NCBI RefSeq assembly: GCF_019059575.1
Contig: NW_024882801.1
Span: 124,001 to 188,000, forward strand
From: Amphibalanus amphitrite
Taxonomy: Eukaryota > Arthropoda > Thecostraca > Balanomorpha > Balanidae
Length of the DNA stretch: 64,000 bases
Reading direction: 5' to 3'
Shown here: positions 23,706 through 57,908 of the stretch, one piece after another
Layout: each line of letters opens with the position of its first letter
Numbering within the stretch: position 1 is the first letter of the stretch
The notes under the pieces: model-generated
Database searches by the model: none
Told to the model about the DNA's origin: nothing
The model's input: the letters and a program-made list of their open reading frames with translations, nothing else
Translations under genes and position numbers: made by a program

Positions 23706-24134
23706 GTTATTTCTGAGAGTTTGGATATCACAAAGCTTTAGATATAAATTAGAATGTAATAAGAAGCTTTCAGCATTGCACCTTTCCAGACACTGATAAT
23801 TCATTTGCCTTTATTGTTTCAAAAGTCAATTTTCAACAAAAAAAAGTTGAAATTATTAACTCAAATAATTGCAAATATATACTTTGGTAATTTGCCTTTC
23901 GCATCACTATCAACAAAATAATCAAGGGTGACTAAATATGAAATGTTCCTGCATGATCTTCATCGTGAACAATTGTCAAGGTATGATGTTTGCGTGTTGA
24001 AATGTTATAAAGAACTTATGTCATAAAAACACAACTTGTAAAATTGTGTCTTTCCATATTATTCTGCAAGTAAGCCTTGGAAGGAAGAGACACTATTCCG
24101 TCCTACAGAAGCCATTTAGAAATGTGTGACATGT

Positions 24135-24304
24135 TCACTTTGAGTCAGTCGGTGCCCGGACCTCAGTCGGCTGTATGACCGTCTCCTCGTCCTCTTTTGT
24201 CGGCTCCGCCCCGTGCTGTTCTATAAGGGTGTCTGACCCGCTGCCGCTATCCCCACTGTGAGGTCTGACCCGCCGCGCGCTGTCACCACTGTCGGCCCTC
24301 TGTG
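24135..24304 (-). CDS. Possible C-terminal exon on the minus strand, unrecognised
   Basis: Read on the minus strand, a CACACAG acceptor-like site near 24305 is followed by a frame that ends in TGA at 24135. The last 50 or so residues are acidic and Ser/Asp/Glu-rich (SGDSGSGSDTLIEQ, then TKEDEETVIQP), which reads like a disordered C-terminal tail rather than chance translation. It abuts, on the opposite strand, the acceptor of the plus-strand exon at 24315. Both can be real only if two genes converge here, so I rate this low. Confidence 0.25.
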
Positions 24305-24314
24305 TGCGCGGCAG

Positions 24315-24899
24315 GTGGTGGTGGACGTCTCTGCCCTGACGCGCGGCGTGCGTCTGCTCAGTGTGGAGGTGCCGCTGACAGCGGTGCCGGCCGGACCGGC
24401 TGCCTCTCCGGCGGCCGACATTGAGCGCGGCACGTGTCCGCCGCCGTTCGGGCCGCTGCAGCTGCTGCAGTCGGCGGCGCAGCTGTCCGTCTCCGTGTCG
24501 CTGGCCGTGCCGCTGGACCTGCTGCCGCGGCCGGCGCCGGCGCGCTGCGCCTACGGCCGCCTGCTGGCCGTCGTCTCGCAGCGCGGCCTGCAGCGCAGCG
24601 GCGTGCTGCAGCTCATCCAGCAGCTCAACGAGCCGCCCAGCCCGGCGGCGGCCGAGGGCGCCGCGCCGCGCCGGCCCGGCGACGTCAGCACACCTGGCAT
24701 CAGCGGCTTCTGCCTGGCCGACCGTCAGCTGCACCTGCTGTTCGCCGAGGGGCGCGCCGACGCCGAGCTGGAACAGACGGCGGCCGCGCCGCGCGCTCTG
24801 CCGCGCCGCGACGCTCGACTCTGCCACCACTCGGGCCTACTGTTACGCCGTCCGCGCCATCAGAGAGTGCTTCCGCACGCAGTGGCTGTCGGAAAATGA
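24315..24899 (+). CDS. Coding exon of an unidentified protein
   Basis: The acceptor TGTGCGCGGCAG ends at 24314. The frame then runs 194 residues in phase 0 to a TGA. Third codon positions are almost all G or C, as in the other host exons, and the peptide has protein-like alternation: VVVDVSALTRGVRLLSVEVP, then LSVSVSLAVPLDLL, LLAVVSQRG, LIQQLNEP and GFCLADRQLHLLFAEGRADA. The pattern suggests beta strands of a small globular domain. I do not recognise the family with confidence; a cilia-associated DUF4550-like domain crossed my mind but is only a guess. From about 24830 the reading becomes Arg-rich and may be past a donor I cannot place. Upstream exons are not identified. Confidence 0.5.
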   Translation: MVVDVSALTRGVRLLSVEVPLTAVPAGPAASPAADIERGTCPPPFGPLQLLQSAAQLSVSVSLAVPLDLLPRPAPARCAYGRLLAVVSQRGLQRSGVLQLIQQLNEPPSPAAAEGAAPRRPGDVSTPGISGFCLADRQLHLLFAEGRADAELEQTAAAPRALPRRDARLCHHSGLLLRRPRHQRVLPHAVAVGK

Positions 24900-26390
24900 A
24901 CCTGCTTCCCAACGAGGCCGGCCTGCAACAACTGCTGGCCGGCTGTTGGCCGAAAAAAAACGCCTTCAACCGGATGTCAGTTGTCAAATCAACGCGTATT
25001 AATGCATTCAATAGGATGGGCTTACGTAAAGCTGTATAATTGCAAATATATAATGGCACTGTTTTTGATCCGTTCGGTATGCATTGGTATCATATGATCT
25101 CTCATTCACAGACGATCAGCTGCGAAGACCCAGATCCGTAGTAGAGGGCTCATCGAGTCCGGGTCCAGCTCCCCGTACTTCCTCCACTTTGGAAACACCG
25201 CAGCGCAGATCACAGTTATACATAATATTTAGTTTTCATTCACTTCATAACCGAAGGTTGTTTGATAGGTGATATGCTGCTTGAGTTGCACCCCGGTATA
25301 TCAATACGAAGCTTCCGTCCCTGCCACATACCAGTGAAGGAGGCGGCGGCGGCGGCGGCCGGGGCCGGGCTGCCCTGCCCACCGACACAGTCTGTGAAAT
25401 GCCCCAACAACCTTTAAAATTCAACAGGCTTCATAAATGTTTTTTTGCACCATATTTTCTCGCGTATATGAAAGCTCTAAAATGTACAATATTCCTTTCA
25501 GCCACAAGCGATATAAAAGCTCTACAAAACGTCATGTCTCTGTGTGCAAGAAAGACACATATATTGTGTATAATCGAGCGTACATGATCTGCAGCGCTGC
25601 GGAGGGCTGCTCGGTTGCCGCTTTTTACCAGTCGGCTCTAGGTCGGACATATGGGTAAACAAAATGGAATAGTAATATTAAACAATGCTACCTGCTGATG
25701 CTACTGGGCCTCTCATTGGTGAAGAACTGGCAGCCAGCCAGCGTGTTTTTGTGAGAACTGTTTTAACAGCAGCAACCGAACGGCTCTCGGGCCAGCGACC
25801 AGTGAGCGTAGACAGCACAGCGCTCCGTTAGGCATCGGCGGGCAAGCACGCATTAGCTGTGGACGGACCGGCCGCCCGAACATATTTGTCGGTATCGAAA
25901 GTATCGTGAACCAAATGACTGCTAGCGAAAAAAGGACTGCCTCTCGTATCCATGAAAACATGTGTTCTACAAAAGTACATAATTGCTTAGTTGTCGCCAA
26001 TCACTCATTGCACCATGGCGTCAGTGTGGGGCCGCGCCCCGAATCATCTCAATCGCCAGGCAAAGCATCTCAATCGACAGGCACATGGTAGTCCAGCTAC
26101 GAATCCGAGCCGCGGCATCCCGTCTATGTATCTACATTACACCACAATCGAACACTGTCGGGCCACAAGAGACAGCAGTCTCCAATGTAACATCAAAACC
26201 CGCCACTCGTCTAATATCAGAAAAATGAGCATTGAGTACCTACCGAATATCGACTACAGAAGATTACAATGGGGTGCAGATCTAGCAAGAGTGTCGCGGT
26301 TCGTCTCGGCACGGCTTACAGGCCGCCGAGCCCGCGCAGGTGACCGCCAGCTCCACCTGTTCCACCTCCGGCGCGGAAGCTCGATCACAA
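24900..26390. other. Unassigned region
   Basis: AT-rich DNA with a (GGC)n run near 25340-25360 and GC-rich patches at 25780-25880 and 26280-26390. Nothing with codon bias or a recognisable domain. Confidence 0.4.
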
Positions 26391-30645: not shown

Positions 30646-33600
30646 AATATATGCAAGGCACACATCCTCAACGTAAGACACATTTTTCGGGACGAGAAAT
30701 AGAATATCTTTGCCTAGGGTGATCGTTGGGCTGTAAAAGCTCCTGATTTATGCTCGTCTCAGCCCAAGCTACGGAACTGCTATTCCAGTTCAAAACCCAT
30801 GTTAAAATGTGAACTATTTCCTTTAAGGTGAAACAAGGCCCAGGCCGGAAGTTCCGACTCTCTTCAGACCTGCCAGCGCCCGCAGGGCAAGTCTGCTGCT
30901 AGATTGACCACAGCGTGTCAAAAAATTCGGTGACAGCCATTTGCATAAACATTATGCGCCATGCGGTCACCCTGCGCCTAAAAATTCAGCTGCCACCATG
31001 CGTTGAATTTGACGCATGCAAAATTATGCTGGATGTGCGATGAAATTTTCGGGGCAACGCCGCAATCACGCCACTTCGCATGACATATTCGGCATAACTT
31101 GCGTTTTTTTATCCAGTCTGGCATTTCAGTTGTGAAAGCCTGAACAGTTCAAAAGGGTTTGCTAATCCAGGGGAGAGTTCTGTGAAAACAAAAGTAATAG
31201 AAGAGCCATTGCAATAAATAAGAATTTAGGTACCTACCTAGGTACTTACTTGTGCACAGTCACACGCATATCAGTCCCGACCCGACGTAGGTCGTTTGCT
31301 CCGCGGATCACGCACTTCTTCATCGTTATTACTTATTATAGGTATTTGTTCGAACAAAAATGCCCTGATTTCGGATCAGAGCCACGGTATAAAATATGGT
31401 ATACTGCCTTGCGTAAGATAAAAATGCATTTTAGCAATTGGCTACCAAACGAGATGTCATCTGTTCAGGGCATAGCATAGGTTTACTTTCATAGACCTCA
31501 TGAAAGTAGCTCATGAAACTCATCACCAATCAGCGCGACGGATTTCAAGATTCGATTGCGGATGTTCATCCGCCGGCCGATTGCCAGAACAGACAACGAA
31601 AAATAATGCAACTGCTCGTGGTCTGCTCGCTAGTACAGGGATCCGTGCCTGATCAGTACTGCTGCAAGCTGATTGGTTAAAAACCAAAGCCTCGCCGCGG
31701 GTGGCTGTATTGTCGGATAAGAACGCATTCCTGGGATAAGAACGCATTCCTGGCATATTTTCTTTTAAAATTGCCGATAACTACGAATGGAGGCCGAAAT
31801 CGGCCGTAAGGAGGTAGACAGAGAGGTTTTCGGACACGGGCTACAAGATGGCTATCTCAGTTTCAATCCCCATGTTAAAGGTGGCCCTTTTCCTTTAAGC
31901 CTTGTTACTTTGAACTATTTTCATTTAAGTTAACACTTGAAATATTTACACCCGTCAGCATCCATTTATTCCTGTGGATAAAAACTACACAGAATAAGCA
32001 ATAGCCAGTCCTTGCATCTGATTTGACAACGCTTGTGCAATGACACTGCACACTGCATAGACAATAAGCATATAGTGGAGCGACTCTAAATGTTAGGGCA
32101 GTGCTCCAATTAGTCGCCCGGTACAGCTAATGAATGCTTTTTCTTTCATCCGGCCCACCAGCAGGTCTAAACTACGCCGGCGAGCGCACGGACCTCTTTT
32201 CGTGGTGTTCAATGAGGATCATTTGTGACACCAACGCTCCTTATTGTGTCAGTGGACACCGGTGTATTTCGTGGTCTCACGGTAGACAGGGAGATTTAAG
32301 CACACATTCAGTGGGCCAGGTATTCCATTTTTTTATGGTTCCACTAGACCTAAGCGTCGACGAAATTAGAGGAATGTATCAACGAATGCGGCAGCAAGGT
32401 TACGTGTAAACGAGTAGAGAACATGAAAAGGAATGCATCCGCATCAGCGGAAACATTTCCGTCTGATATGTTCTGAGAGATGTCGATTATTGATGTCGCT
32501 TACTTGGCATAAACACTTGTAACTGCCGCTCATCTGGGTAAGCAGACACATGCATCATGGTATACTCGTAGTTCGTTCCTAGGTAGAACGAACAATGAAG
32601 TTTGCGAGTACCTAATGGTCATTGGTCGCCATGTGCATTTATATGTTGTTGCATAGGTATATGTAGCGTAACGAAATGAGGTAAATGAGGAGCTCAACAT
32701 CTCTCATTTTAAAAGGGTCGGGTCAATCATATTAACCGATTTCCCGCATATTTTTGCGTTATTCTGGCATGCTCCAAGTGATGGGGGAATTATGAAAGAC
32801 AAGAATCATTTTGCATAGATATGCGCTATTGTAATATGTATCTGTGCTGCTGTTCTATATGTGTTTTGGACTAGCGAAACCTCCGAAGCTGCAGCGGAGT
32901 TTTCGACGGTAGCGGCGCATAGGCTTCTCAGACCTCACTGTTCCCCGGCCCTCGGCCTATCGAGCGCCTCTCATTGCTCAATCAGTGGTCCAATTCTGGC
33001 CTCTCTTTTCAGTCAGGATTAGACAAAGAAGCCCACAATCTCCCGATGCAAAAGCGTGAGAAAGTTCCACCGGCTCGAAATCAAACTCAATCTGGGCTAA
33101 GGAAATGTGTGAGGGTCATTTTGCAGAGCTGCGGGAGGCTCGCGGGCGCTCTATTGACCCAGGGTCCTGATGGGGCGGCGATCCCAGGAGGAACGCCGGC
33201 TCTTTTTCTTCGCCCCTCCCCTCAGCTGTTGTTATTGGATACCTCCGAGCCAGCAAACGGCGTCGGTGGGGGCCGTTGGATTGAACGAGTGTGACAGATT
33301 AAGCCATCACTGAGAACAGAGCGCCATCAGCGCGGAGGCCGTTCGTAGATGGGCCGACCGCTACTCTGCGGCCGCTGTTTTGGCATCCGCGGCACAATGA
33401 TGGGAGTCTGAACGACACCACATCATTGGACGCCCTGGGCTTGGGCCGCCGCCGGTGATCATAGGGCATCCTAGGGCGCGGCGTAAAAACATGTTCGGAA
33501 AGCCTCACTGATCATTTGCACCAAGTTTACCTACACCCAATTCTGACGAAGGAGCGGAGGACGATCGATCATTGGCTGAGTCTACAGGGACCTAACGGAC

Positions 33601-33660
33601 CTAACATGACGATCTGACCTAATATGTCTCGTGTGACCCATCACCCCCCTACTGGTGGCG

Positions 33661-33927
33661 ATGGCCGGTCTCGCCAGCAGCGATCCTGAGGCAAACGAGG
33701 AGTTCAACATGTTCTCTCCTCTCTTCAGCCCCACACAACACAAGGTGGTGAGACCGGCGGCCAACCCCTCTGAGCAGATCCACGTCAACACCAGTATTTA
33801 TCTAGTTTACACAGACTTGCACGAGGCTGTCAACAAGGCTACGCTGGGAACCGGGCTGCAAATGGGCAAGGTGGACCAACGGATGGGCTGGAGCGGGAGC
33901 GATGGATGTCATCTGTGTAATTTGTGA
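33661..33927 (+). CDS. Possible nicotinic acetylcholine receptor-like N-terminal exon
   Basis: From the ATG at 33661 the frame gives 88 residues. Codons from about 33667 to 33790 are G/C-ending and protein-like. After a hydrophobic Ala/Leu/Ser start come DPEANEEFNMFSPLF and then HKVVRPAANPSEQIHVNTS. This fits, in order and spacing, the start of a mature Cys-loop acetylcholine receptor subunit, where an acidic 'NP-D/E-A...L' segment precedes 'N-x-L-x-RPV-x-N-x-S/T' and a beta strand. The frame beyond about 33800 looks like intron readthrough. No downstream receptor exons (Cys-loop, M1-M4) are visible in the window, so it is an isolated exon, a pseudogene fragment, or a resemblance by chance. 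Confidence 0.4.
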   Translation: MAGLASSDPEANEEFNMFSPLFSPTQHKVVRPAANPSEQIHVNTSIYLVYTDLHEAVNKATLGTGLQMGKVDQRMGWSGSDGCHLCNL

Positions 33928-35988
33928 TTACAATAGCGTTAGATCAAATATCCAGCTGACACTTTTCAGACATTTTGAATAAAAGTATCACAAAATGTAG
34001 GCATTGTCATCGCATAATATGCAACAAATATCACGTCTTTATGTACATAAAGTTGAAGGAAAAATGTGACACGTTCTAGCCAAAGAGAAATGTCCCTTTA
34101 TCAGTGGCGCGGTACAAAACATTTTAATTAATCGCGCAACGCAGGAGCCATTTGTGAGAATTTCAACTGGCATGCAATTGCTTCCTGTCTGGGCAAATGA
34201 ATATGCAAAGGGATGCAACACCAATCTCTCCTGTCGGGATCCCGGCGACACTGAGAAATGACCTCTGCAATCTTAACCAGCACTCGTACAAAGTCGGGCG
34301 GGCCGGCCAGGAGCCGCGGCGCGGTGTCCGACGGAGACGCATGTGGCTGGTTTATTGGACGGCCTCCTGTGCGGAGCCACCATCAGTGGAACTTCAGACA
34401 CTGCCAGCTGCGCCCCTCCACTTCACTGCATTAGTGTTGGCGCCCCGCCGGCGCGGCCTCATCTGTATCCGTGAACACTGGTAACTTAGCCGGCTGAAAC
34501 ATTTCTGTGAACTGTGAACGAGACGGGAGAGAATTCGTCGCGGAAATTATAAGACCACGTAACTCGTTGTTCAGCTGCACCACCTGAAAGCTATTCGACT
34601 TTCGTCATTCATTCATTCTACCTCATTGGAGAAGCACAAACGCGATGACAGCTTATGAATGTTTGAGCGGTTAGATTCGGCCAGCGTCCTAAGGGCTGAA
34701 TATGAGAGAGGAGCATGAGGTCCTTTAGCATAAGGTACTTTATCATGAGGTCCTTTCGGTCTAATAAGACCGTTCCAAGCCCATGTGATTGGAACACAGG
34801 GGAAGATTTTGGGCCGAGTCGACCACCGACTGGTGCGCCGCTGTCGTTGAGCACATTCTGGGACGGGAGAGTCCCTGTGAGACGGGCCACCCAGCCACTC
34901 AAACACTGACCCTGAAGGGGCATGTCTAAGAAAATAATAGTGTAAGCAGCTGGATGCGGAATGCGGATGCGTTGGTCCTGAGGAAGAAGGGGAGGGAAAA
35001 ACTTCTCCAAATAAGGTGTGCGTGTTAATAAGGTACCGAGGAATGCTATTACACGTACTGTTGGCAGCCATGTTATTCTTGCTGTTTCATATGAACAGTC
35101 CCAGTGGGCATTATCTGCGCTAAAGTTTCTCGCCATTGTTTTTCTTGGCGAAGAATTTCAATAGCAATGCTCATTACCTCCGTTCCCACCATTTTTCCAT
35201 CCAGAGAGGCTGTTTTGAACCTCGCCAGTCTTTCTAACAGGCAAACAAACGGCACTGTGCGCGGTCGGCATTCAGAACCACTCGGCCGGCGGGGCTCCAC
35301 TTGAGCGCCAGCCTCGTTTGAAGCCGTACAACGCTCTGGCCCTGCGGATCGTGACTAGAGTACTTACAGAGCTTTAGCGCTAGTTCATAAACGACAGGTT
35401 AACTTAAAAACTTAAATATGAACAAGGTCGAAATGTTTTGAGGCATATGCATGGATTACTTTAAACGACACACTATTCAATATATGTTGTGGTTGTCCGA
35501 CGTCCATGCCTATCACACGTACAATACAATGCAGCTGGGCAGCATCCCATGTATTTGAGCCCGAGGCTGATGCATACGTAAAGGAATCGTTTCGCCTCCC
35601 GGCCGGCTGTTTCCGCCTCCGAACGACCGGCCAATCTGATGATACGGCGCGGCCATGCGGTGCTCGTAAACCGGTGATGCATAAACTTTCGGCGGCGCCA
35701 GCGCCCCAGCCACATGGCAACCGAGATGGCTCTTACAGCCCGCACCAGCGCACTGCGGCTAGATACGATCCGCTAGGGTCGAGCTGCTGCCAGGACACAC
35801 TCCCGCGTATCGCTCAGACCGTGACCGTATCGCACCCCGAGGCTCGCAGCTCGAAGACGGACGGCGTCCGCCATGTCGGCGGCGCCGCTCGGCCGTCTGA
35901 CCATTCCGCCCCATCGGCCGGCTACAGCGACCCGGACTTCCAGCCCAGCGGCTCCCTATCGATAACAGTCGTCTGTTTTTGTTCCCAG
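33928..35988. other. Intergenic or intronic region upstream of the LRR gene
   Basis: GC-rich patches at 34290-34470 and 35580-35960. The frame open upstream from 35506 into the LRR exon is broken conceptually by a good 3' splice site at 35988 and has no protein-like content, so it is probably intron. The first exon with the LRR protein's start codon was not found. Confidence 0.4.
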
Positions 35989-37977
35989 ACTGAGCGGCGG
36001 CCGCCGGCGCTGCCGCTGTGGGCCCTGCTGGTCACCAGTGGCGCCGCCCTGGTGGCCTCCGCCGACACCAGCAGCGACATCTGTCCGGAGAAGTGCAGCT
36101 GCTCCGAGCAGACGCCGCGGGCCGTCAGCTGTCGAGGACGCAGTCTGGTGGAGCCCCCTGACGGCCTCCCACCGGACACGGCCGTCCTCGACATCAGCTC
36201 CAACCGTCTGGCCGGCGGTCTGGCCGAGCTCGGCCGTCTGACAGCGCTGCGCGAGCTCCGGCTGGACGACAACCGGCTGCCAGCGGTGCCGCGCGGCGCG
36301 CCGCTGCGCCTCCTCTCACAACTGCGGCTCCTCAGCATGACCCGGAACGGCATCCGGACCATGTACGAGGACGCGTTCCGGGGTCTGGTGAGTCTGGAGG
36401 AGCTGTCTCTGGCGACCAACAAGATCGGTCACATCGAGGATGAGGCGTTCTCTGAGCTGCAGTCGCTGCGAACGCTCAACCTGAGCGGTAACCAGCTGAC
36501 CACTGTGTCACCGGCCTGGTTCCGCCAGCTGGCTAACGTCACCACGCTGGACCTGTCAGGGAACCGGCTGCGGCACATGCCGGTCGGCGTGCTGGGCGGC
36601 ATGGCGGCGCTACGGCGGCTGCTGCTGGCGGAGAACCACATCACCTCACTACACACAGCATCACTGCTGGGCCCGCGCAACCTCTCCTCGCTCGACCTGA
36701 GAGGAAATCAGCTGACGGCGGCACCGAGCGCGGCGCTGCGGCGAGCCGCCCACCTGGACACAGTGCGGCTGTCGGACAACCCGTTCGCCAAGCTGCCGGC
36801 GGCGTCGTTCGCCGGCCTCTCCGTCCGTGAGCTGGATCTGAGCTCGCTGCCGCGGCTGCAAATTATCGACAGCGGCGCGTTCGTCAACCTGAGCCGCCTG
36901 GTGGAGCTGCGTCTGAACGGCAGTGGCGCGCTGAGGTACGTGGCGCCGCGGTTTGTACACGGCGCGCCGGCGCTCCGCCGCCTGCTGCTGCACGACACGG
37001 GCCTGCTCAGCCTGGCAGCAGAGCTGGCCGAGGAGCTGGCCGCGCCGCTGCAGCTGTCTCTGTACGGTGCGCCGCTGCGCTGCGACTGCGTGCTCGCCTG
37101 GCTACCGACGGCGCTGGCCTCAGGCTCAGTGACGCTCGCCCAACCGGAGGGCACACTATGTAAGACACCCGAGCAGCTACGCGGACGCCGACTGGACGCG
37201 GTGCCGGCGGCGACGCTGGGGGACACCTGCGGTCCGACGTTGGTGCCGCTCGGACGGTCCACCGTGCGGCGCGACACCGGCCAGCGGCTAACACTCGAGT
37301 GTCGCGCCACGGGCCGGCCGGCGCCGCGACTCAGCTGGAGGTCACCGCGGCAGAACACCAGCCGCAGCGGTGGCTCGCTGCTGCTGCGCCACGTCACCGA
37401 GGCGGACGCCGGCCGGTACTGGTGTGTGGCCGAGAGCAGTCGCGGCACAGCCAACAGGTCCGTCACCGTGCGGGTCCAGGAGGTGGACATCCACCTCTTC
37501 CCCACCGGCGTCTCCTCCAAGTTCGTCACGCTGGTCTGGAACGGCACGGCGCGCAACAACTTCCCCCGCTATCAGCTGATGTACGGGCGCGCCGGTGAGG
37601 ACGAGTCGGACTACGAATCGCGCATCGTCACCCCGTTCCACCGCTCCTACACTATCGGCGGTCTGCAACCGAGCACCAGCTACCAGTTCTGTCTCAGCTA
37701 CCCGGACCGCGACAGCCGACCGGTGCGCATCTCCTGTACAGACGTCCGCACACGAGACGCCGCGTTCATGACGCGAGGCATCCGCCGAGAGTGGACGGCA
37801 GCGGCGGCGGCGGCGGCCGGCGTGGCGGCGCTCGTGCTGGCCGGTCTGACACTGCTGGCAGTGGCGGCACGCCGCTACCGCAGCCGGCTGAGGGAGGAGA
37901 ACGACAAGGACACCGGCAGCCAGATCCCGCTGGAGAGCTTCTACAGCCCGCTGCTGAGCCAGTCGTCACCCAGCTGA
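35989..37977 (+). CDS. LRR-Ig-FN3 single-pass transmembrane protein (LRIT/LRFN/kekkon-like)
   Basis: Predicted cell-surface adhesion or receptor protein. A strong acceptor (GTCTGTTTTTGTTCCCAG, ending at 35988) opens the exon in phase 0, so the true start lies in an unseen upstream exon. The 662 codons here begin with the hydrophobic part of a signal peptide (LPLWALLVTSGAALV). They continue with an LRRNT cysteine cap (CPEKCSCSEQ...VSC), about 12 leucine-rich repeats (e.g. LRTLNLSGNQLTTV, VTTLDLSGNRLRHM), an LRRCT cap (PLRCDCVLAWL...C...C), one Ig domain (LECRATG...LSW...DAGRYWCVA), an FN3 domain ending in a Tyr-x-Phe-Cys strand, a transmembrane helix of Ala/Val/Leu, and a short basic tail. This order is shared by vertebrate LRIT and LRFN proteins; I cannot name the orthologue. 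GC3 is extreme. The stop is TGA followed by C, with a long open frame after it (next entry). Confidence 0.9.
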   Translation, partial: TERRPPALPLWALLVTSGAALVASADTSSDICPEKCSCSEQTPRAVSCRGRSLVEPPDGLPPDTAVLDISSNRLAGGLAELGRLTALRELRLDDNRLPAVPRGAPLRLLSQLRLLSMTRNGIRTMYEDAFRGLVSLEELSLATNKIGHIEDEAFSELQSLRTLNLSGNQLTTVSPAWFRQLANVTTLDLSGNRLRHMPVGVLGGMAALRRLLLAENHITSLHTASLLGPRNLSSLDLRGNQLTAAPSAALRRAAHLDTVRLSDNPFAKLPAASFAGLSVRELDLSSLPRLQIIDSGAFVNLSRLVELRLNGSGALRYVAPRFVHGAPALRRLLLHDTGLLSLAAELAEELAAPLQLSLYGAPLRCDCVLAWLPTALASGSVTLAQPEGTLCKTPEQLRGRRLDAVPAATLGDTCGPTLVPLGRSTVRRDTGQRLTLECRATGRPAPRLSWRSPRQNTSRSGGSLLLRHVTEADAGRYWCVAESSRGTANRSVTVRVQEVDIHLFPTGVSSKFVTLVWNGTARNNFPRYQLMYGRAGEDESDYESRIVTPFHRSYTIGGLQPSTSYQFCLSYPDRDSRPVRISCTDVRTRDAAFMTRGIRREWTAAAAAAAGVAALVLAGLTLLAVAARRYRSRLREENDKDTGSQIPLESFYSPLLSQSSPS

Positions 37978-38448
37978 CAGTCACCGGCCGGCGGCGGCCG
38001 GCGCTCGGCGCCCTGTTCGCGCCAGTGCACGCCGCGGCCGGCCCACCGCAACAACCGCCGCCAGTCGACGCCGGCCACGGCCTCGGGCCGGCACCTGACG
38101 CCGCGCGGCGGCCGCGGCCCGCGCCGGCCGCAGTGCGACTGCGCCAGTCTGCGCGGTACGCCGCTGGCCGGGCGGCGGCCGGCCGACGGGGACGGCTCGG
38201 GGCCCAGCGGAGCCGCCGCCGGCCCCAGCGGGCCCACAACCACAGAGGCGGTGGTGGAGAAACCACCTGAGTCGACAGAGCCAGCGACCAAGGCGGTGAC
38301 GGCCGCGGTGGAGCCGCGCCGCCACTCGGGAGGGGTGGAGCCCCGCCGCCACTCGGGTGGGGCGATGGTAATGCGCACAGACCATTCGGTCACAGAGACA
38401 GTGGACATTGAGACGGTGCCCATCATCGAACAAGAGCTCAAGAGCTAG
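37978..38448 (+). CDS. In-frame 156-codon extension after the LRR gene's TGA (candidate stop readthrough)
   Basis: The reading frame of the LRR protein stays open for 156 codons past the TGA at 37975-37977 and ends at TAG. It reads as a cytoplasmic tail: basic Arg/Pro/Ser-rich, then acidic, finishing TETVDIETVPIIEQELKS. A nine-residue tandem repeat (VEPRRHSGG twice, 38308-38334 and 38335-38361) differs at 2 of 27 bases, both synonymous third positions (CCG/CCC and GGA/GGT), which argues for selection on this reading frame. The stop context is UGA-C, the leakiest context in animals. Six bases further on, an all-GC stem can form (CCGGCC 37984-37989 with GGCCGG 37996-38001). Alternatives are an alternative splice that removes the TGA, a recent nonsense mutation, or an assembly error. 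Confidence 0.6.
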   Translation, partial: QSPAGGGRRSAPCSRQCTPRPAHRNNRRQSTPATASGRHLTPRGGRGPRRPQCDCASLRGTPLAGRRPADGDGSGPSGAAAGPSGPTTTEAVVEKPPESTEPATKAVTAAVEPRRHSGGVEPRRHSGGAMVMRTDHSVTETVDIETVPIIEQELKS

Positions 38449-39824
38449 AGCTGCCACAGCGCTGGGTGGCGGACGCGTTCAAACTAAGTGGCGAGCTTCG
38501 ATGGAGATTGGAAAAACTAAACCTGGGCGGTCTCGGAATACCGGGCCAAACGTTCCCGTAATATTCACTATCGCTTCGAAGCGCTAACGCACCAAGTATT
38601 AGTGAATTCATGTGCCAAACACTACGCTTACCATTCACTGCACCAGCGCTTTTTAATGCACAAAAGGGGTTGGATGTCTTGTTTGCAGATGTGTTGCTTA
38701 TGACGTGGAGATGTTATGATGTTGACAGAATATGAGATCTCATTAATACAATTCAACATTAAATGCATCCTTTTCCTCTAACTTTATGCTAGGAGAACAG
38801 CTCCTGCCAGACCCCAACAAAGAAATGACACACGAAATGAACCGTGCGACTGATCATGTCAACTGTCGACTCTACTACCAGCAGACGGCGGCCACAGACC
38901 ATCTCCCGGCCACCTAAATCTCAGGAACCGTGTGGGAAGCCGCCATCCATCACTGTCCCGTGGGCGCCCCGAATCCGCCAAAGGTCAGCCGGACATAATG
39001 TAAATAATGGACATGGCCAAACCCCGTGCTCTAACGTTGTTCGCCCAGATTATTTACGGCTAACCCAATCAAAAACTAGTTCGGCAGCAAACTGGCGGAG
39101 CTTCAATTGCAAATTACATCCCACCCAGTTGTCGCCATCAATAACAGAGAATGTAAAAAGAGTGTTATCGATTGTTAGGTATATTTATGATGCAACTCCC
39201 GCACTCCATCTAAAAGTATGAATACTACAGCACTTTATGGGCATGCACACTAATAAAATGGATATACAACAGTGATGATGGGACGTCGACAGCGCATATG
39301 ACTCCTCACAGAACCGTGTTAGCCCGCAGCTATTTCTAGCAGCCACACACGTCAGTCTGGTCTAGCATCAAACGAACCTCCATCTAAAAGACCTCGAATA
39401 GGTACGCCACTTGATCGCTCCTAACCAATTCTGACCCCTCAGTATGTTGGGCGAATATCGTCTTAACGGGAGCTTCACAACCGCTCAAATAACCCGACAG
39501 CTGGAGACGCATCGCCCCACCTAGCGGACTACACCCGTCTTTGGACACTTGGTCTGCGAGCCCAATATCGCAGAGTCTGAGTTTGCTGACCGAAAAGACC
39601 TACCGATCACCGGCTATAAGACATCACCCTCAGGTCTCCAGTCAAACTCAGGTCACCGCCGGCCACTGTCGGTCTCCTTCGGCACTCCCTTCTCTACTCA
39701 CCCTGCGGTCGCCGTCCTCTCACCAGGGGCTGAGCGGGCTCACCAGCTCCTCAAACCACGACCGTGTCCGTGGGTCGGCGGGAGGCGGCACGCGTCCGGT
39801 CGCGGCGCGGTGCGGCGACGCGTT
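38449..39824. other. 3' intergenic region between two converging genes
   Basis: AT-rich DNA between the LRR gene on the plus strand and LIN37 on the minus strand. No coding exon or structured repeat seen. The two 3' untranslated regions probably lie here. Confidence 0.5.
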
Positions 39825-41926
39825 CTAGCTGTCCGGTATGCAAATCGAGCTCAGCACGGCGAAGCTGTCCGTGTAGCGGCGCTCGTTGTTGGCAGCGGCG
39901 GTGCGCCACTGATCGCGCACAGAGCGCCACCGCGCCAGGTGCCCGGCGAGAATTTGGCTCTTCGGCGGCGCGTCATCCGCCTGGGTGAGACAAAAGGGTG
40001 GGTTAGATTGAATCAGCACACATCAGCAGGTACCTTGTATATGGTATATGGCTACGGCGAAGGAGACAATGCACGGACAAACCCGGCTTGAAATACGGCG
40101 GCACCTAGCAGAACACATTTAAAGGTACAGTGCCAACTAACAGTGTGAATAGACCGAAAACAATTATGGGCCCATGTTCACAAGTTCATCTGAAGATTTG
40201 CCTAACAAATTCAGCCATCCTCTTATAAGCGGCATGACAAAACTTCGAAATGTCAGCAGTCATCGGCATATCACATTCACTATCAAACTACGTAAACATC
40301 CACGCAAACAACCCATTCCAATAACTACCGAAGCTCCCCGTCCCCCGCTGCCTGCCGCCATGTCCCCAGTCACCTTGCTGGGCTGCAGCTCGGGTAGCTG
40401 GACGGGGTCGGGCGGCCGCAGTCCGGCCGGCACGCGCAGGTTGGCCGGCTGGCCGTCCTCATCCAGTGGCGGGAACAGCGGCGGCGGCAGCTGGTACACC
40501 AGGTCGCCGTCGGACGGCTCCTCCTTGGGCTCGGCCTTTGGCGGCGGCGCGGCGGCCGTGCCGTTCGGGTCGTTGGCCATCCAGGCGCGGCAGACGGGGT
40601 AGAGCGAGGAGCCGGCCGGGAACTGCGCCAGGTTCACGCTGCGGTCGAACAGTTTCATCACGTAGGTGTCGGGCAGGCTGCCGGGCGCCGCCGGCTTACG
40701 GCGACGCCGCTTGGAGCCGCGGCTCGGCGACGATATGTCCCTGGCGAAAGGTAGGGAGCAAAAATCAGAGCAATATTCGCACTAGGATGTGTGGCAGGGC
40801 TGCAATGGTTGCACAGACTTAATGGTATACCTGGCTTCCAAAATCTACCACTGATCACAGCAGACTGCTAAGCTAATTATAGTTAGAAATCTGCCTCAAA
40901 CAACGAAATAACTACACATGAGCTTTGATGCAACTGATTTATGACACATGTGAACAGTAAACTTGACAGAGCCCAACACTAGTCGTGTTTACATAGGGTT
41001 CCCTTAATCTTCCCCTATTTCTCCCCTATTTTCAGATCGAATTTTAGGCATCATAGCGCTCGCGTGTAACGTTGCTATGGACGCTATTGTTGTTAGAAGC
41101 ATACTAAGCATCGTTTATGCTGTAAACAATATAAATTGGGCTTATTTAATACTCGAAATTCAACAATTCATATTTTGAAGTAATTTTATCCTGCCCTTCA
41201 ATTCCCTGACGACGAATAGGGGAGGATTTGGTAGCGTAGCGCCTTTCCAAAAGCTGCTACGCTACCATATCCAGTGGTTCTCAAACTATCACATCACAAA
41301 AGCAGCGTGCTGATTGGCCGGCAGTTCCGAATCGTCCGAATGGTGGTCCCCGACTCGACAAGCGCACGTGCGCCGACTGAGGATTTTTAAGTGGCATTAA
41401 CGCATAAACGGCAGAAAGTCAAGGCGGAAATTCGACAGGTGCGGTGTTCTGATATTGCCGTGGATGTGATTATACCTACTTGAATAATAGCTCAGCCGTT
41501 TAAAGTATGTTAAATGCCAGATAGTTTTCTGATTTTTCTTGCTTTGAGCTTTCATGTGCTATCACTTTTACCTCAGTGTCTAGTCTGGAAGCTATTTGGG
41601 AGAGCCCTAAAGGTAAGTAACAATTGCAAACTGCTTCTAGAATGACTTAGTTGCGCCATATTTGTAGTGAAGCGAGGTAAAGGAGACAGAGGATTCCTTT
41701 ATAAGGGACATTTAAGAGACAAATAGGGGAAGATTAAGGGAACCCTATGTAAACACGGTTACTGCCACCTACACCAGCCAGCACAGTGTCACTGCCAGCA
41801 CGGAGCTCACTGGATATCGATCAGGTTGTCCTCCTCCGAGCTGTCCCACTCCGAGCCACGTTTTCGGGAGCCGGCCGCCTGCAGCGCCCCCTGCAGCTGG
41901 CCACGCGCCTCGCTGATCGGGTCCAT
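39825..41926 (-). CDS. LIN37: LIN37, subunit of the MuvB core of the DREAM complex
   Basis: LIN37 (Drosophila Mip40) is a nuclear subunit of MuvB, which represses cell-cycle genes together with E2F/DP and pocket proteins. Three minus-strand coding exons agree in phase: 41926-41811 (ATG, ends in phase 2 at CCA|GTGAGC), 40740-40374 (acceptor TTTCGCCAG, donor CAAG|GTGACT) and 39980-39825 (acceptor TCACCCAG, stop TAG). The total is 212 residues against about 246 in human. The second exon holds the family signature, TYVMKLFDRSVNLAQF followed by LYPVCRAWMAN, then an acidic linker and YQLPPPLFPP. The last exon holds the C-terminal helix HLARWRSVRDQWR...RYTDSF. The N-terminus has ARGQLQGALQ, like the ARNQL segment of vertebrates. 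A pyrimidine-rich AG just upstream of the ATG suggests a 5' untranslated exon further right. The first intron carries a transposon (40984-41757). Confidence 0.93.
40984..41757. mobile_element. DNA-transposon remnant in LIN37 intron 1
   Basis: Inverted ends of roughly 40 bp: the left begins CGTGTTTACATAGGGTTCCC and continues TTAATCTTCCCCTATTT; the right is the reverse complement with few mismatches. The 774-bp interior has no transposase frame. No clear target duplication. It lies wholly inside an intron of LIN37. Confidence 0.75.
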
Positions 41927-50474: not shown

Positions 50475-53380
50475 TCAGCACTGCGCGCGTCCAGAGAGGC
50501 CAAGCCGGCAGCTCGCGTGATCACGCCCTGGGTCCGCGCCCTCAGCCGGGGTAGGCTCACCGTGCCATCGCCGAACTGGATGACCATCGTGGAAGAGTTC
50601 GAGGTCATCTTCCGGTTGATGATGGGTGCTACCGTCGACGGTCAGTCCGGTATCGTGCCATCTCAGTGCCATCTCGTCGAAGGACACTACACATAGACGC
50701 TCCAAGGCGCCCATACCTTGGACTGCTGCCCTTAGTACGGCGAGAGCTGCCTCTATTACTCCGGGCGTCACGCGGAAGCCACGGATCCAGCGAGACAGGG
50801 TCGCAGCGGAAGGAAGAGGCAGGTGCATCACTTGTTGCACATACTCGTAGGCCTTTCGGCTCCTGCACCGCAGTCCAAGTGCCCGAGAGATGTCCTCTGC
50901 TGTCCACTGCACTCTGTGACCCGACTGGACAGTCGAGACCTGCTTTTCCGTGACGACTCCCAATCTGAGCAGTTTCTGGAGCTTGTGCGCCTTCCGCTCA
51001 GCCACTCGCAGCTTCCGCAGAAGCATCTGTCTCTCTTGCCGCCACTGCCGCTTCTGTTTCTCCATGCGCAGCTTCAAACGCCGATTTTGCTGGCTCAACT
51101 TCTGCACTTCCTCCAGGGGAGACAGATACTGGACCTCGCCAGCCGGCAAATCCGTAGCTGCAGGAGACCACTCCATCTGGTTCGAAGCATCCAGTGAGAT
51201 AGATCTGTGGGAAGGAAATAGAGCATTAGTATTTTCTTGCATCTGAAATAAAAAAATGAACAGCGAGCTTCATTTTCAGGGTGAATTATCATCACGGTTA
51301 AGCTGAAAATTAATAATTGACCCGGCAGGCGGTGGGCCTCCGGGCCACCTTACGAGCGGGGGTGGGACTTTTTTGCCTCCCCCATATCTCCGAAACTACT
51401 GGATGGATCTGCAAAATCAAACAGCGTTCTATAGCCCTGTCTATTTTTCGAGGGAAATCCAATTTTATTGACCTTGGGGTTACCGATGATGTCACAGGTC
51501 AGATCAAAAATAAAATGTTCAATAAAAATAAACTGTTCACGGGTCTTCTTGGGAATGCAATATAACATCAGGTAAAATGCATTTAATCGAAAATCAGCGA
51601 TAGGGCGCCAGTTTCCTAGTGCATATATTGCTATGAGAGGTCACTGATAATACCACCTCAGGTCACAGGTCAGGTCACCAAGAGTCAAAACAATATGAAC
51701 TCAATTTTACTATGGCCATGTAAGAAAATGCCCCCCACTCCCCCTGCCTGGAAGGTTAAGGAATAGTCTTCTTCAGAGTAATGTAAAGCAATAGAATAAA
51801 TATAAGTTCAGAGTTGCACAACTGTGAGCTAATGTCAGCTTAATGTCAGCTAGCGTCAGCTAACGTGAACATTACGTCAGCTCGCGCAATTTGATAGCCG
51901 CGTGCTGCTATCACCGGTGAAACAGGGCCCAGGTTTAGAGCCTTGCCCACAGTTTCCACTCAAGTGATTCAGAGGTAAGCTTAGTCTGAGTCTGATTGCA
52001 ACATCATTCTCAAAGCTAGCATCTGAGTGTATTCAGTCTCTATCAAAACTACTGATTGCTGGAACCCTTGGCCCTGTTTCACCAGTGATAGCAGCACGCT
52101 ACCTACTATCAAATTGCACGAGCTGACGTAATGTGATGAGGTCACACTAATGACGTTTCGTGCAATCCGTGAGCTTCGTTTCGACCAGAGTTGCTGTCTC
52201 GTTGAATTGCGTTTGCTACATTTGGGCGGTGTTTCACGGGACGCTGCTATCACGCTGCTATCAAATTGCGCGAGCTGACGTCATACTTGTGGTAGTGTTG
52301 GAGCAATGGGCCTGTTGATGTTTCCATGGAAACCCAATTTGACACGTGTAAAAGCAGCGTGCTGCTATCACCGGTGAAACAGGGCCTTGTTTGATCGCAT
52401 GGCCGTGAAGATGCTAGCAGCAATATTTGATGACATCACACAGATTGACTGAGTCATGCTTTGTTGATGTTTCCATGGAAACCCAATTTGACACGTGTAA
52501 TAGCAGCATGCTGCTATCACTGGTGAAACAGGGCCCTTGTATTGACAGTTCAAGCACCTAACAAAGAAAATATCAAATTCAATTATCTCCTCACCTTGAT
52601 CTATCACTCAGAGATGAGGACGCTCCCTCAGTGTTGATGATGTCCTGCGCAAGGGACTTCATCTGTCGGCGATCACTCCTTGAAGCCCGAGTGCTTTGTT
52701 GCGCTGGTCTGTGAAAACACCATTTACATCAACATTCAAATAGGGCACAACTTCAGTGAGCTGCTTTGATCAATTGGTGACTGATGCACAGATTATATTG
52801 ATATGCAAAATGTTTCAAGTATCATGCAAATATGTCGGTAGCGGTACCTAACTTGGTACCTACCTGCTTACTAGCAACCTAATTTACAAATTAATGTGTC
52901 ATGGTACATATCTGACAAGCGCACACAGTCACAGTGCAAATCCAAAAGCAAATATAAATTTGTTACAATTTCCATCACAATAAGAAAGATTCGAATTAGT
53001 ACATTACCAACTGAATAGTTGGCATTCATATCAAATCCATTAAAATGAAATACATACCCCGAAGACCCAGCACTGCGCAGATTCTGTGTTGGAACCGCAT
53101 TAGTCTTCAGACATGGGCTCACACCTGGCATCAGGGATGCTTTCACAAGGTAGGAAGGATCATAATCTGAATCAAGAAAGTGGTCTGAGCAAATCCTTGC
53201 CTGCAACACATTTATAGGATCCTGCCTCGAACATCTATGCACCATGGATGAAGTCCTAATCCATGTATGCACCCAGGTCGCACATGTGGCTGGATCCTTC
53301 GGGAACCGAAAAAACGATTTTGTGCAGAACTTGCCAGTCCTTCGGTAACTTCGGCATGTAGCCACCGCACAGTACGACAT
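50475..53380 (-). pseudogene. THAP-type P-element-like transposase, truncated after first catalytic Asp
   Basis: Three minus-strand exons join in phase without a stop: 53380-53058 (ATG; donor GG|GTATGT), 52708-52595 (acceptor TTTTCACAG; donor CAAG|GTGAGG) and 51204-50475 (acceptor TTCCCACAG). They give 388 residues. Exon 1 is a THAP zinc-finger domain: CAVATC, an HP-like RFPKDP segment, W36, CSDHF and AVPT (the C2CH pattern). Exon 3 opens with a basic coiled coil (EEVQKLSQQNRRLKLRMEKQ) and the domain preceding the RNase-H fold. It reaches VVSFDEM, the first acidic catalytic motif of P-like transposases, then departs from the family and stops. The remaining catalytic residues and C-terminus are absent. 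It could be a decayed copy. It could also be a THAP plus coiled-coil protein able to bind DNA without cutting, like the truncated P repressors of Drosophila. Confidence 0.8.
51883..52535. mobile_element. Cluster of MITEs with GGGCCCTGTTTCACC ends, in intron 2 of the truncated transposase
   Basis: The terminal motif GGGCCCTGTTTCACCRGTGATAGCAGC appears, in one orientation or the other, at about 51904-51930, 52070-52098, 52352-52386 and 52500-52535, with partial forms at 52228. Subterminal motifs ATCAAATTGCRCGAGCTGACG and TGTTTCCATGGAAACCCAAT recur beside them. One reasonably complete element spans about 52072-52386. The others are fragments inserted into each other. Confidence 0.7.
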
Positions 53381-54182: not shown

Positions 54183-57100
54183 ATGTCTAGAAAAAAGTAT
54201 GAGAAAGGAAATGGTGCATGGTGTGGTGCGATGTTTTGCAAGAACTCCAAGGAAAAGAATCCGGATCTTTCGTTCCACCGGTTCCCTGAAAACCCGCAAC
54301 GGTTAGTATGGTGACCACTTTTCGAGGCTCTTTAATCGCTATATTTGCCTGGGTATCGTCCGTATGTGCTTTGAGTCAATGTGAGGGTAATCTGTTTTAC
54401 TGCTACCTGTGTTGTCAGTTGTTTGGCATCTATTTTTGTGCTATAAAGCAGTGCCCTGACCTAATTGCCGTGAGCATTACATTGTCCAGTCGGCTCTAGT
54501 CTTTGTGGATATGTCTATGCTTAGATAAGTGTATTTTTGTTGGATTACATTCCCCATGCCCTTAAGTGTGACCAAAGTTATCAGCCAATAATCATTGGTA
54601 GGTCAAGTTACCTGCTGTCTGCTGAGTGCGGCACTCAGGCTAATTACTTTGTTATTTCTCAGGTGCATGAAGTGGCTCACCAACTGCAGAAGGAAGGATC
54701 TGGAAGGAAAGAGTGTTGATTATCTAAGCCAGAATGTGAGGATCTGTAGTAAGCACTTTGAAGATTCTCAGCGGCGTCCTGGAAGTAACCGCCTGAGGAG
54801 GAATGCTGTGCCAACTCTGTTTGATGTGCCGAACCCACCCAAGAGGATGGACATCAAGAGACCGCTGACGGCACGCCCTGAGCCTCAGCCAAAGAGGCAG
54901 AAACCAGGTGAGTTGCCCATTTTATGCATAGTTCCATATTCCATAAAGAAAAATAGGAATGCCATGGAAAATGTTACAGTGAAAGCAGATATTTTTAATG
55001 GCTGAGCACTGTTTTGAGAGACATGTAACAAATAAAAGGTCAGGTTGGGTCATTCAATGATTTTTTTCCCAAAATTCACTCTGGACTAACTTGGATTTTT
55101 TGTCATACCAGATGCATGATAAAAAGGATCAGATGAGGCACTAAATTTCTGATAGATCCTTCTGATCAAACTCGGGATGCGCCAACAAACTTGGTCTATT
55201 GGTTGAGATTAAACAACAGTGTTCCTTTTTTGCCATTTGTTTGTCCTGCTCTAACAAAAGTGTACTGTTTTTCCACAGAGCTGAAGCCAGAGGCGGATTG
55301 GAGTGGACTGCAGTGGATGGATGCAGACCTCGCTGAAGCAGAGAAGGAGAATGAGGAAGAGGACATCCTGACGTCCCCTTCAGTGCCCGGCAAGCTTGCT
55401 GCTAAGAGGACCATCAACAAACTCAGGTGCAAAGTGAGACGGCTGACTGTGACTCAGAAGAAGTTGGTTGCAAAGCCTCCTCAACCCATCCAGCCTTCAA
55501 TTGAATCCATCCTCGAGGCTACATCCGCCATCCTCCCAAAACCCATCCAGTCATTCATGGGACTCCAGTTGAAGTTAGCATCAGTGCCTCCAAAAGCGAG
55601 GAGGTACACTGATGAAGAGCTGGCTCAAGCTATAGCCATTTATTACCAGGGTCCCCGAGCGTACAATGAGCTGCGCAAGAGGTTTTTTCTCCCCAGCCCA
55701 AGGGCTTTGCGCAGGCGCCTGGAACTGGTTCAACTAAACCCAGGAATGCACCCTATGATCATGGCTCTACTCAAAGAAAAGTGCAAGGGAGCTGAACCGC
55801 ATGAGCGCCAGGTGGTTATCTCATTTGATGAGATGCAGGTGCGACCCAGACTCACCTACCTCCCAGCGCAAGACCGTTTCGAGGGGTTCGAGGACCTGGG
55901 GGAGCTGGGTCGGACTGAGAGACCGGCGGACCATGCCCTGGTCTTCATGGCCCGAGGACTGACTGCTAAATGGAAGCAGCCGATTGGCTATTTCCTGAGC
56001 TGCGGTCCAACACCAGCCCGTGTCCTCCAAGTCCTACTGCACTCAGCTGTGCGGCAGCTCCGTGAGGCCGGGTTTGTTGTCACAGCATCAGTCTGCGACA
56101 TGGGCACACCCAACCAGGACCTCTACAGGAAACTAGGCGTGACGGCAGACTGCCCAACGTTCCTGGTTGATGACGTTCCTGTCGCTGCACTACACGATGT
56201 ACCACACCTCATCAAGTGTGTCAGAAATGGTCTGCTGAAACATGATGTAGCTGTGGACGGTCAGGAGCTGTCCTGGAGACACATCACAGCCTTCTACGAG
56301 GAAGACAAGGACCGCCCAATCAGGACTGCCCCTAAGCTGACCAAAGCTCACCTGCAGCCGGACGCTTTCAAGAAGATGAAAGTGAAGCTGGCTACTCAGA
56401 TCTTCAGCCGTTCAACTGCAGCGGGCATGCTGTTGTACTCATCTCTCGGTAAGTATTAATGGGTATTGTGGGCAGTGGGCGTGCTAATTTTAAGTGTTTT
56501 GACCCTTTGCCACGTTATGGTTAAATATATTATCAAACATTAGAATAATAATTATGGATGCATACTACATAGATATAATATCAGTGACCAGCTGCTGTGT
56601 ATGCTATGTGACTCACCAGTCACCACTGCTTGGATCACTCATTGAGAGGTTGACTTTGTTTCATATTCCTAACATATTTGTTGTGACACTTCATTAGTCA
56701 ACTAGAGTAGGAAAAGCAAGTATATTTTTAGGAACAGTTGATATTGCTGTCCACAAACGCATTTGATTTTTCTGTTCTGAGTCTTGCTTAGTGTCGAACC
56801 TGTCACAAATGCATATATGCTATGTAGCTTACATTCTACTATTTTGACAGGTATCCTGCCAGCTGACGTCATCCCGACCGCCAACGCCCTGGATCGTCTG
56901 AACAACACCTTCGATGTACTGAACAGCTGCACCCCGCAGAGCCCCAATCCCATGAAGAGGGCTCTGTCGGTGGACAACGAGGAGCAGCTACTCGGTCTGC
57001 TGCGCGAGACACGAGCATGGATCTCGCGTTGGAGGGTGGGGAACGGCGTGAAGGTCGACTTCGTTCACGGCCTTAAGCTCACCATCACCGCGGTCATCCA

Positions 57101-57908
57101 AATCTGGACGGCGCTGAGGGGCGACCCGCTGACCTTCATGATGACGCGCCGGCTGAACCAGGATGGCCTGGAGAATCTGTTCGGCGTCGTGCGCATGTGT
57201 CATGGGCCGAACGACCGGCCTGACCCAACGCAGTTTCGGCATGCGTACCGCAAAGCGACAGCCAGCCGCATCCTGTGTGCGCCTGTGACTGCCAACTGTG
57301 AGGCAGATGGCGACACCGTGCTGGGGGTCCTGAGCAGCGTTGCTCGTCGTGTGAGCCAGCCAGCGTCTAAAGTGCGCGTTAGCTACACGCAGGGACCCCG
57401 TGTGGTGGAGGAGGTGGTGGTAGACGCCGTAATGGAGAACTGTCTTACGTACGTGGCCGGCTACCTGGCACACAAAGTGCATCAGAGTCACCGCTGTGGT
57501 GTGTGCCAAAGCGCCTTGTCCTCTGGAGAGGCAGTGGTCGCCTCCCAGCGTGACATACTGACTGGACTGAAAAGTTACACTGGGGTTAGTGATGCTGAAG
57601 TTGGAAGTCTCCTTCTTCCCACGGATGACTTTTACGCTGTGGTCAAAGGGTGCTATGTGACCACTCAGGTCCAGGCGCGGACGATGCTTCACGAGACCGG
57701 AGTCGCTCGTCGACTTGTGCTGTGCGTGTGCAGCTCCAGAGAGGCCACACGACTCCAGTCGCAGATGTGCTGCGGCAAGGTCCTGAGGGACGCAGTCGGT
57801 CGGTTTGTGCGCCTGCAGCTGCATGTGATGTCGCGTAAGGTGGTGATGGGCCGGGGGAGCGGGAAGCCTGTTTACAACAGGAAACTGCTCAAGCTGTCGC
57901 GACGCTAG
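54183..57908 (+). CDS. P-element-like transposase with THAP domain (THAP9-like), apparently intact
   Basis: Four exons join in phase: 54183-54301, 54663-54907, 55279-56448 and 56851-57908. They encode 863 residues, close to the 751 residues and four exons of the Drosophila P transposase. The transposase binds the element's ends and cuts DNA with an RNase-H-like fold. Exons 1-2 make the THAP finger (WCGAMFC, FHRFPENP, W, CSKHF, AVPTLF). Next come a basic Pro-rich linker, an acidic EKENEEED segment, and a coiled coil with INKLRCKVRRL. The catalytic motifs are VVISFDEMQ (first Asp), ASVCDMGTPNQ (second Asp) and LNQDGLENLFGVVR (Glu), with a GTP-binding-domain-like insertion between the last two. 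The C-terminus has CxxC pairs (RCGVCQSAL) and VAGYLAHKV, both typical of the family. Donors GTTAGT, GTGAGT and GTAAGT and all acceptors are consensus. Confidence 0.92.

Follow-up and report, generated by a model that had tools for sequence, protein, structure and literature searches.

The TGA at position 37975, which closes the main open reading frame of a receptor gene in the barnacle Amphibalanus amphitrite, is on balance probably a site of functional stop codon readthrough that would yield a minor long form of the receptor with a 156-residue tail. Readthrough had been proposed in an earlier note on this DNA, and it is still the best explanation found for the region within the window (the whole 64,000-nucleotide stretch analyzed). 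The proposal gains from a CARYYA hexamer and from a hairpin spaced 8 nt from the stop, whereas an open frame of this length is not significant, the hairpin is only moderately unusual, and word-based searches found no database protein with the tail. The features on which the argument draws are as follows.

33661..33747, + strand: coding part of exon 1, the first 29 residues of database protein P0001 (tblastn 100%), with donor GTGAGA at 33748
35989..37974, + strand: coding part of exon 2, 662 codons, with LRRs, Ig domain, FN3-like domain, membrane helix and short cytoplasmic part
37264..37476, + strand: Ig domain, residues 426-496 (Pfam I-set)
37489..37749, + strand: FN3-like seven-strand domain, residues 501-587 (from the model; Pfam fn3 below cut-off)
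37795..37884, + strand: membrane helix, residues 603-632 in the AlphaFold2 model
37924..37956, + strand: IPLESFYSPLL, a motif of the form IPLxxxYxPL common to vertebrate LRRN1, in which YSPL is of the YXXPhi type
37975..37977, + strand: first stop, TGA, at the end column common to four proteins
37978..37983, + strand: CAGTCA, read from the sequence, which fits the readthrough hexamer CARYYA
37986..38043, + strand: predicted 22-bp hairpin after an 8-nt spacer (folding of 81 nt from the TGA)
37978..38445, + strand: candidate readthrough extension, 156 codons (in-frame translation and third-position GC)
38308..38361, + strand: 27-base tandem repeat, two copies, with two synonymous third-position differences
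38446..38448, + strand: second stop, TAG, beyond which phase-specific GC is gone
39252..39257, + strand: AATAAA, a possible poly(A) signal 3' of both stops (pattern only)

The receptor gene and its common protein end

The 662 residues specified by the exon at 35989-37974 (+) are identical to the corresponding part of P0001 (691 aa), an Amphibalanus amphitrite protein named 'leucine-rich repeat neuronal protein 1-like' that ends at TGA 37975. The LRR-Ig-FN3 architecture assigned earlier is borne out for the LRRs and the Ig domain, which lie above the Pfam cut-offs, but the FN3 match falls below its own (18.1 versus 25 bits) and is represented by the seven-strand domain modelled at residues 501-587. 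The AlphaFold2 model (14 aligned sequences, mean pLDDT 73.4) contains the LRR part, two beta domains and the helix at 603-632, with low confidence from residue 632 onward; its top Foldseek match is LINGO-1. The LRRN family features present are LRRs, one Ig domain, one FN3 domain (in the model only) and one membrane helix, and on the basis of the domain order and the IPLxxxYxPL motif we call the gene a barnacle LRRN-like counterpart of vertebrate LRRN1-3. Up to the TGA, the cytoplasmic part comprises 30 (counted from the model helix) to 36 residues, and readthrough would lengthen it to about 190.

Four proteins (P0001, P0002, P0003 and P0004) reach the same end column in the alignment, 17 residues beyond the point where the IPLxxxYxPL motif begins. 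Identity to the barnacle receptor is 85% for P0002, 78-79% for P0003, and 46% by BLASTP (61% in the alignment) for P0004 from Pollicipes pollicipes; it is on this identity that P0002 and P0003 are regarded as barnacle proteins. A fifth protein, P0005 (37-38% identical), stops three columns earlier. The end column common to four proteins argues against both an assembly error and a recent nonsense mutation, and an assembly error at TGA 37975 is accordingly rated as unlikely from these sequences. The same observation is just as compatible with a plain end as with a leaky stop.

Several other details of the locus and window were recorded. P0002 and P0003 have an ATG at the start of the signal peptide (MRLWALL and MWLWMLL, respectively), where A. 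amphitrite reads LPLWALL (35989-36050); since the A. amphitrite model places its start on another exon, 29 residues upstream, it is uncertain where translation truly begins. The intron holds a 15-base tandem repeat in three copies (34712-34756). Elsewhere in the window, pieces of a P-element/THAP-like transposase lie in two neighboring open reading frames at 55191-57908 (+), with TNP-like RNase H N-terminal, GTP-binding insertion and C-terminal domains, and an N-terminal fragment of such a transposase lies on the opposite strand at 50475-51242 (-).

Candidate recoding signals around the stop codon

The main competitor of readthrough, which is a real possibility although the less probable of the two, holds that the tail is 3' UTR, lies in a GC-rich block and merely happens to be open, that the TGA is a plain end, and that the readthrough-like signals are coincidental. 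The evidence around the stop bears on both. The leaky context claimed previously is present, with TGA followed by C, and the six bases CAGTCA conform in addition to CARYYA (the TMV-type hexamer), which the earlier note had not named. Across both strands of the window, CARYYA follows 3 of 2362 TGA trinucleotides and 13 of 5550 stop trinucleotides of all kinds (TGA 37975 included), a rarity whose effective surprise is smaller because a few such hexamers are known. According to the available text of PMC3542737, CARYYA also stimulates readthrough at UGA; the portion available of PMC4132726 gives about 15% readthrough at UGA or UAG in the mammalian OPRL1 context, for the hexamer tested as CAAUUA, not CAGUCA.

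The six-base CCGGCC/GGCCGG stem described earlier can be read at 37984-37989/37996-38001, but the predicted fold prefers the longer hairpin at 37986-38043. In the 81 nt from the TGA this hairpin has an energy of -48.3 kcal/mol (z -3.06) and is equaled in stability by 1 of 200 shuffles, whereas in a 123-nt window the z-score is weaker (-2.02; 5 of 200 shuffles). A scan gave it a z-score of -3.26; of the 379 windows scanned, 3 attained this value, at two other places (36122/36129 and 38313), and 15 had energies as low. The pair probability of the lower stem is 0.22 in a 301-nt context and 0.42-0.69 in a 1001-nt context. The spacing agrees with the statement in the accessible sections of PMC3542737 that 3' stimulatory structures commonly begin around 8 nt past the stop. 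Nevertheless, the case for the hairpin as decisive evidence was weakened by a native control, in which a single hairpin of at least 20 pairs with a spacer of 7-9 occurred at 58 of 2381 positions (2.4%, three of the positions being the 37986-38043 hairpin itself), a frequency that favors the chance-open 3' UTR. Comparable hairpins formed in 2.7% of 8000 shuffles, with energies as low in 0.3%. What speaks against coincidence is that CARYYA and the 8-nt-spaced hairpin occur jointly.

The open frame and its coding signal

Translation from 35989 reproduces the 662 codons, the TGA at 37975 and, as claimed, 156 open in-frame codons up to TAG 38446. The nine-residue repeat is likewise as described, its copies (38308-38334 and 38335-38361) differing by two base changes, each synonymous and in a third position. 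How long the frame stays open, offered earlier as support, provides none: 24% of 3000 dinucleotide shuffles were equally open in frame 0, and openness was dropped as proof of coding. Other frames of the tail DNA are open as well (plus frame 2 as far as 38268, and almost the entire length of minus frames 0 and 2), and both results favor a 3' UTR open by chance.

No relative of the tail was found among database proteins at E<=10, either with a 114-residue query (213 word-sharing candidates) or with the region 655-819 (3628 candidates), in searches that depended on exact matches of five residues and on candidates of suitable length, against a database from which unannotated tails are absent; this too is what a 3' UTR would give. 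The tail had no match among solved structures, Pfam or NCBIfam, and no DNA orthologous to the gene was found in the viral or genome contig collections searched. The tail is predicted to be disordered (pLDDT about 30).

The composition of the tail is specific to the frame. GC content at the three codon positions is.724/.692/.859 in the tail,.689/.544/.858 in the body and.474/.468/.481 after the TAG. With the frame fixed beforehand, the third-position GC excess in the tail is 0.151 (p=0.0007 versus dinucleotide shuffles), and it persists without the second repeat copy (p=0.0008) and without the hairpin region as well (p=0.0012). An excess of this level was seen elsewhere in 11 of 1167 plus-strand window-frames, windows starting at 35521-38445 being left out of this control. 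The frame-0 excess and its disappearance after the second stop count against a UTR that is open by chance.

Other compositional measures are less clear. Under a codon model built from the body, frame 0 is the best of the six frames in the tail as a whole and in each half, with a margin over the best rival frame of 0.068 (p=0.075; p=0.01 against the mean of the others), below all seven held-out body windows (0.167-0.409). The same model also ranks frame 0 above the others, with a margin of 0.036, in the 252 bases past the second stop, which lowers its value as coding evidence, and this weak codon signal counts in favor of the chance-open UTR. The synonymous-codon score favors frame 0 in the entire tail and in its second half, not in the first, and the amino-acid composition score favors it in the second half only, although the latter score also fails on the last 156 codons of the body. 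Overall, frame-specific composition gives moderate support for a coding tail, more even in 38221-38445.

The overall GC content of the tail (76%) was dropped as a mark of coding because the GC-rich block, with change points at 35593 and 38365, reaches similarly far into the upstream intron (approximately 395 bases) and past the TGA (approximately 390 bases); this extent is again consistent with a UTR open by chance. Three-base periodicity was likewise abandoned as a unique property of the tail: with the best phase allowed, the GC excess was.049 in the intron flank and.135,.170,.010,.029 and.199 in five other hand-picked GC-rich stretches, two of which exceed the tail's. At 24129-24960 and 40301-40768, GC-rich stretches have a three-base GC periodicity that equals or approaches the tail's. 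Pfam gave no match above cut-off for eight open reading frames at or near some of the GC-rich and other places; this holds for those tried in and near 24129-24960.

Other routes past the stop

It is improbable that alternative splicing or a separate start, in place of readthrough, gives access to a tail that is coding in whole or in its second half. The more even coding signal of the second half would suit this, as would the donors at 37422, 37458 and 37595, which fit 7 of 9 positions, and the acceptors at 38025 and 38332, where 10 of 15 bases are pyrimidines. Those donors, however, sit in the Ig and FN3-like domains and their use would remove the membrane helix; the real acceptor at 35988 has pyrimidines at 12 of 15 bases; and no such form appears in the proteins examined from the 120 listed. 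Scored by a simple consensus, no convincing splice pair was found around the TGA, and the best donor between the membrane segment and the TGA fits 5 of 9 positions (37844), in agreement with the earlier statement that no GTAAGT/GTGAGT-like donor lies there. The GTGAG donor said to cost the membrane anchor exists and would remove the helix, but lies at 37595, one base from the 37594 given for it. In their own right, the sites at 37422, 37458 and 37595, located in Ig/FN3-like coding sequence, could if used yield a form without a membrane anchor.

Bypass of the TGA by selenocysteine, by A-to-I editing to TGG or through a sequencing error is very improbable: UGA is the codon used by selenocysteine and is convertible to UGG by editing, and a stable hairpin lies near the TGA, but the TGA is outside the predicted hairpin, no Rfam family, and with it no SECIS element, matched at E<=1 in 33000-39500 (the library used presumably includes SECIS models), and four proteins with a common end speak against a sequencing error.

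Proposed readthrough mechanism

If readthrough is the correct reading, most ribosomes would halt at TGA 37975, just behind the conserved IPLxxxYxPL sorting-type motif, and the short receptor would be the main product. A minority would decode the TGA as an amino acid, aided by the UGA-C context, the CARYYA hexamer and the GC-rich hairpin 8 nt downstream, and would end at TAG 38446. The long form would gain a probably disordered 156-residue cytoplasmic tail, and its YSPLL motif would no longer be near the C-terminus, which could alter endocytosis or partner binding. The sequence signals, the protein end common to the relatives and the frame-specific composition are observed; from them we infer that readthrough occurs, that selection would act on the tail and that trafficking may be affected; a change in signaling, as suggested in the earlier note, is speculation. 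A fuller proposal is tentative and rather unlikely as a whole, namely that a readthrough switch with a virus-like double signal (CARYYA and the 8-nt-spaced hairpin) has been kept across acorn and goose barnacles and tunes internalization by means of a second LRRN-type form in which YSPLL is moved away from the C-terminus.

Comparison with known systems

The vertebrate LRRN1-3 (NLRR) proteins, which are single-pass receptors, resemble the barnacle receptor in their LRR-Ig-FN3-membrane order and in the cytoplasmic IPLxxxYxPL motif, the counterpart of the barnacle IPLESFYSPLL being IPLNELYPPLI in several fish LRRN1 sequences. For vertebrate Lrrn1, YXXPhi and di-leucine sorting motifs are reported in the 63-residue tail (PMC2225406, available portion). 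Most of the motif-bearing vertebrate sequences listed run on to IDTTKTYMW or a close variant, whereas the barnacle main frame ends 7 residues past the motif, and no IDTTKTYMW-like end was found in that frame or in the candidate tail. The idea that the tail is an ancestral vertebrate-like C-terminus was rejected, as its similarity to such ends was no better than that of shuffles (p=0.47, 48 tails).

Readthrough in Pancrustacea (Jungreis et al. 2016, PMC5100048), as described in the available part of that paper, is abundant in Daphnia and in the majority of the insects tested, although the crustacean evidence there rests on one species, Daphnia pulex. The barnacle candidate is similar in its TGA-C context, in the common protein end of its relatives, and in an open in-frame extension with coding scores between those of coding and non-coding sequence, as the same text reports for readthrough regions of flies and mosquitoes. 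Stable 3' structures accompany a minority of the cases in that text, and the barnacle candidate has a predicted hairpin; it differs in that the CAGCAGCA 8-mer was not found. The defining evidence in those cases is conservation of the tail, whereas the barnacle case is known from the DNA of one species. Barnacle coding DNA is extremely polymorphic, with a level of about 20% at fourfold sites in Balanus improvisus (PMC8270832, abstract). Literature searches returned no paper on stop codon readthrough in barnacles, no paper on readthrough in arthropod leucine-rich repeat proteins, and no title about barnacles among work on crustacean readthrough and ribosome profiling.

Among viruses, the available sections of PMC3542737 distinguish type I signals (UAG-CAR-YYA, as in tobamoviruses) from type II signals (UGA with an extended stem-loop approximately 8 nt downstream), and list benyviruses with the type I hexamer and a compact stem-loop. 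The barnacle stop combines the type I hexamer with the type II hairpin spacing, and it differs from both in belonging to an animal gene, in pairing CARYYA with UGA instead of UAG, and in being known from sequence only. If readthrough does take place, an LRRN-type receptor would exist in two cytoplasmic forms made from one mRNA, and the receptor, with a strong signal that can be pinpointed, would lend itself readily to a reporter test outside insects. Readthrough is reported to be common in Pancrustacea, and the barnacle case would be set apart by its double signal and by its place behind a conserved sorting-type motif.
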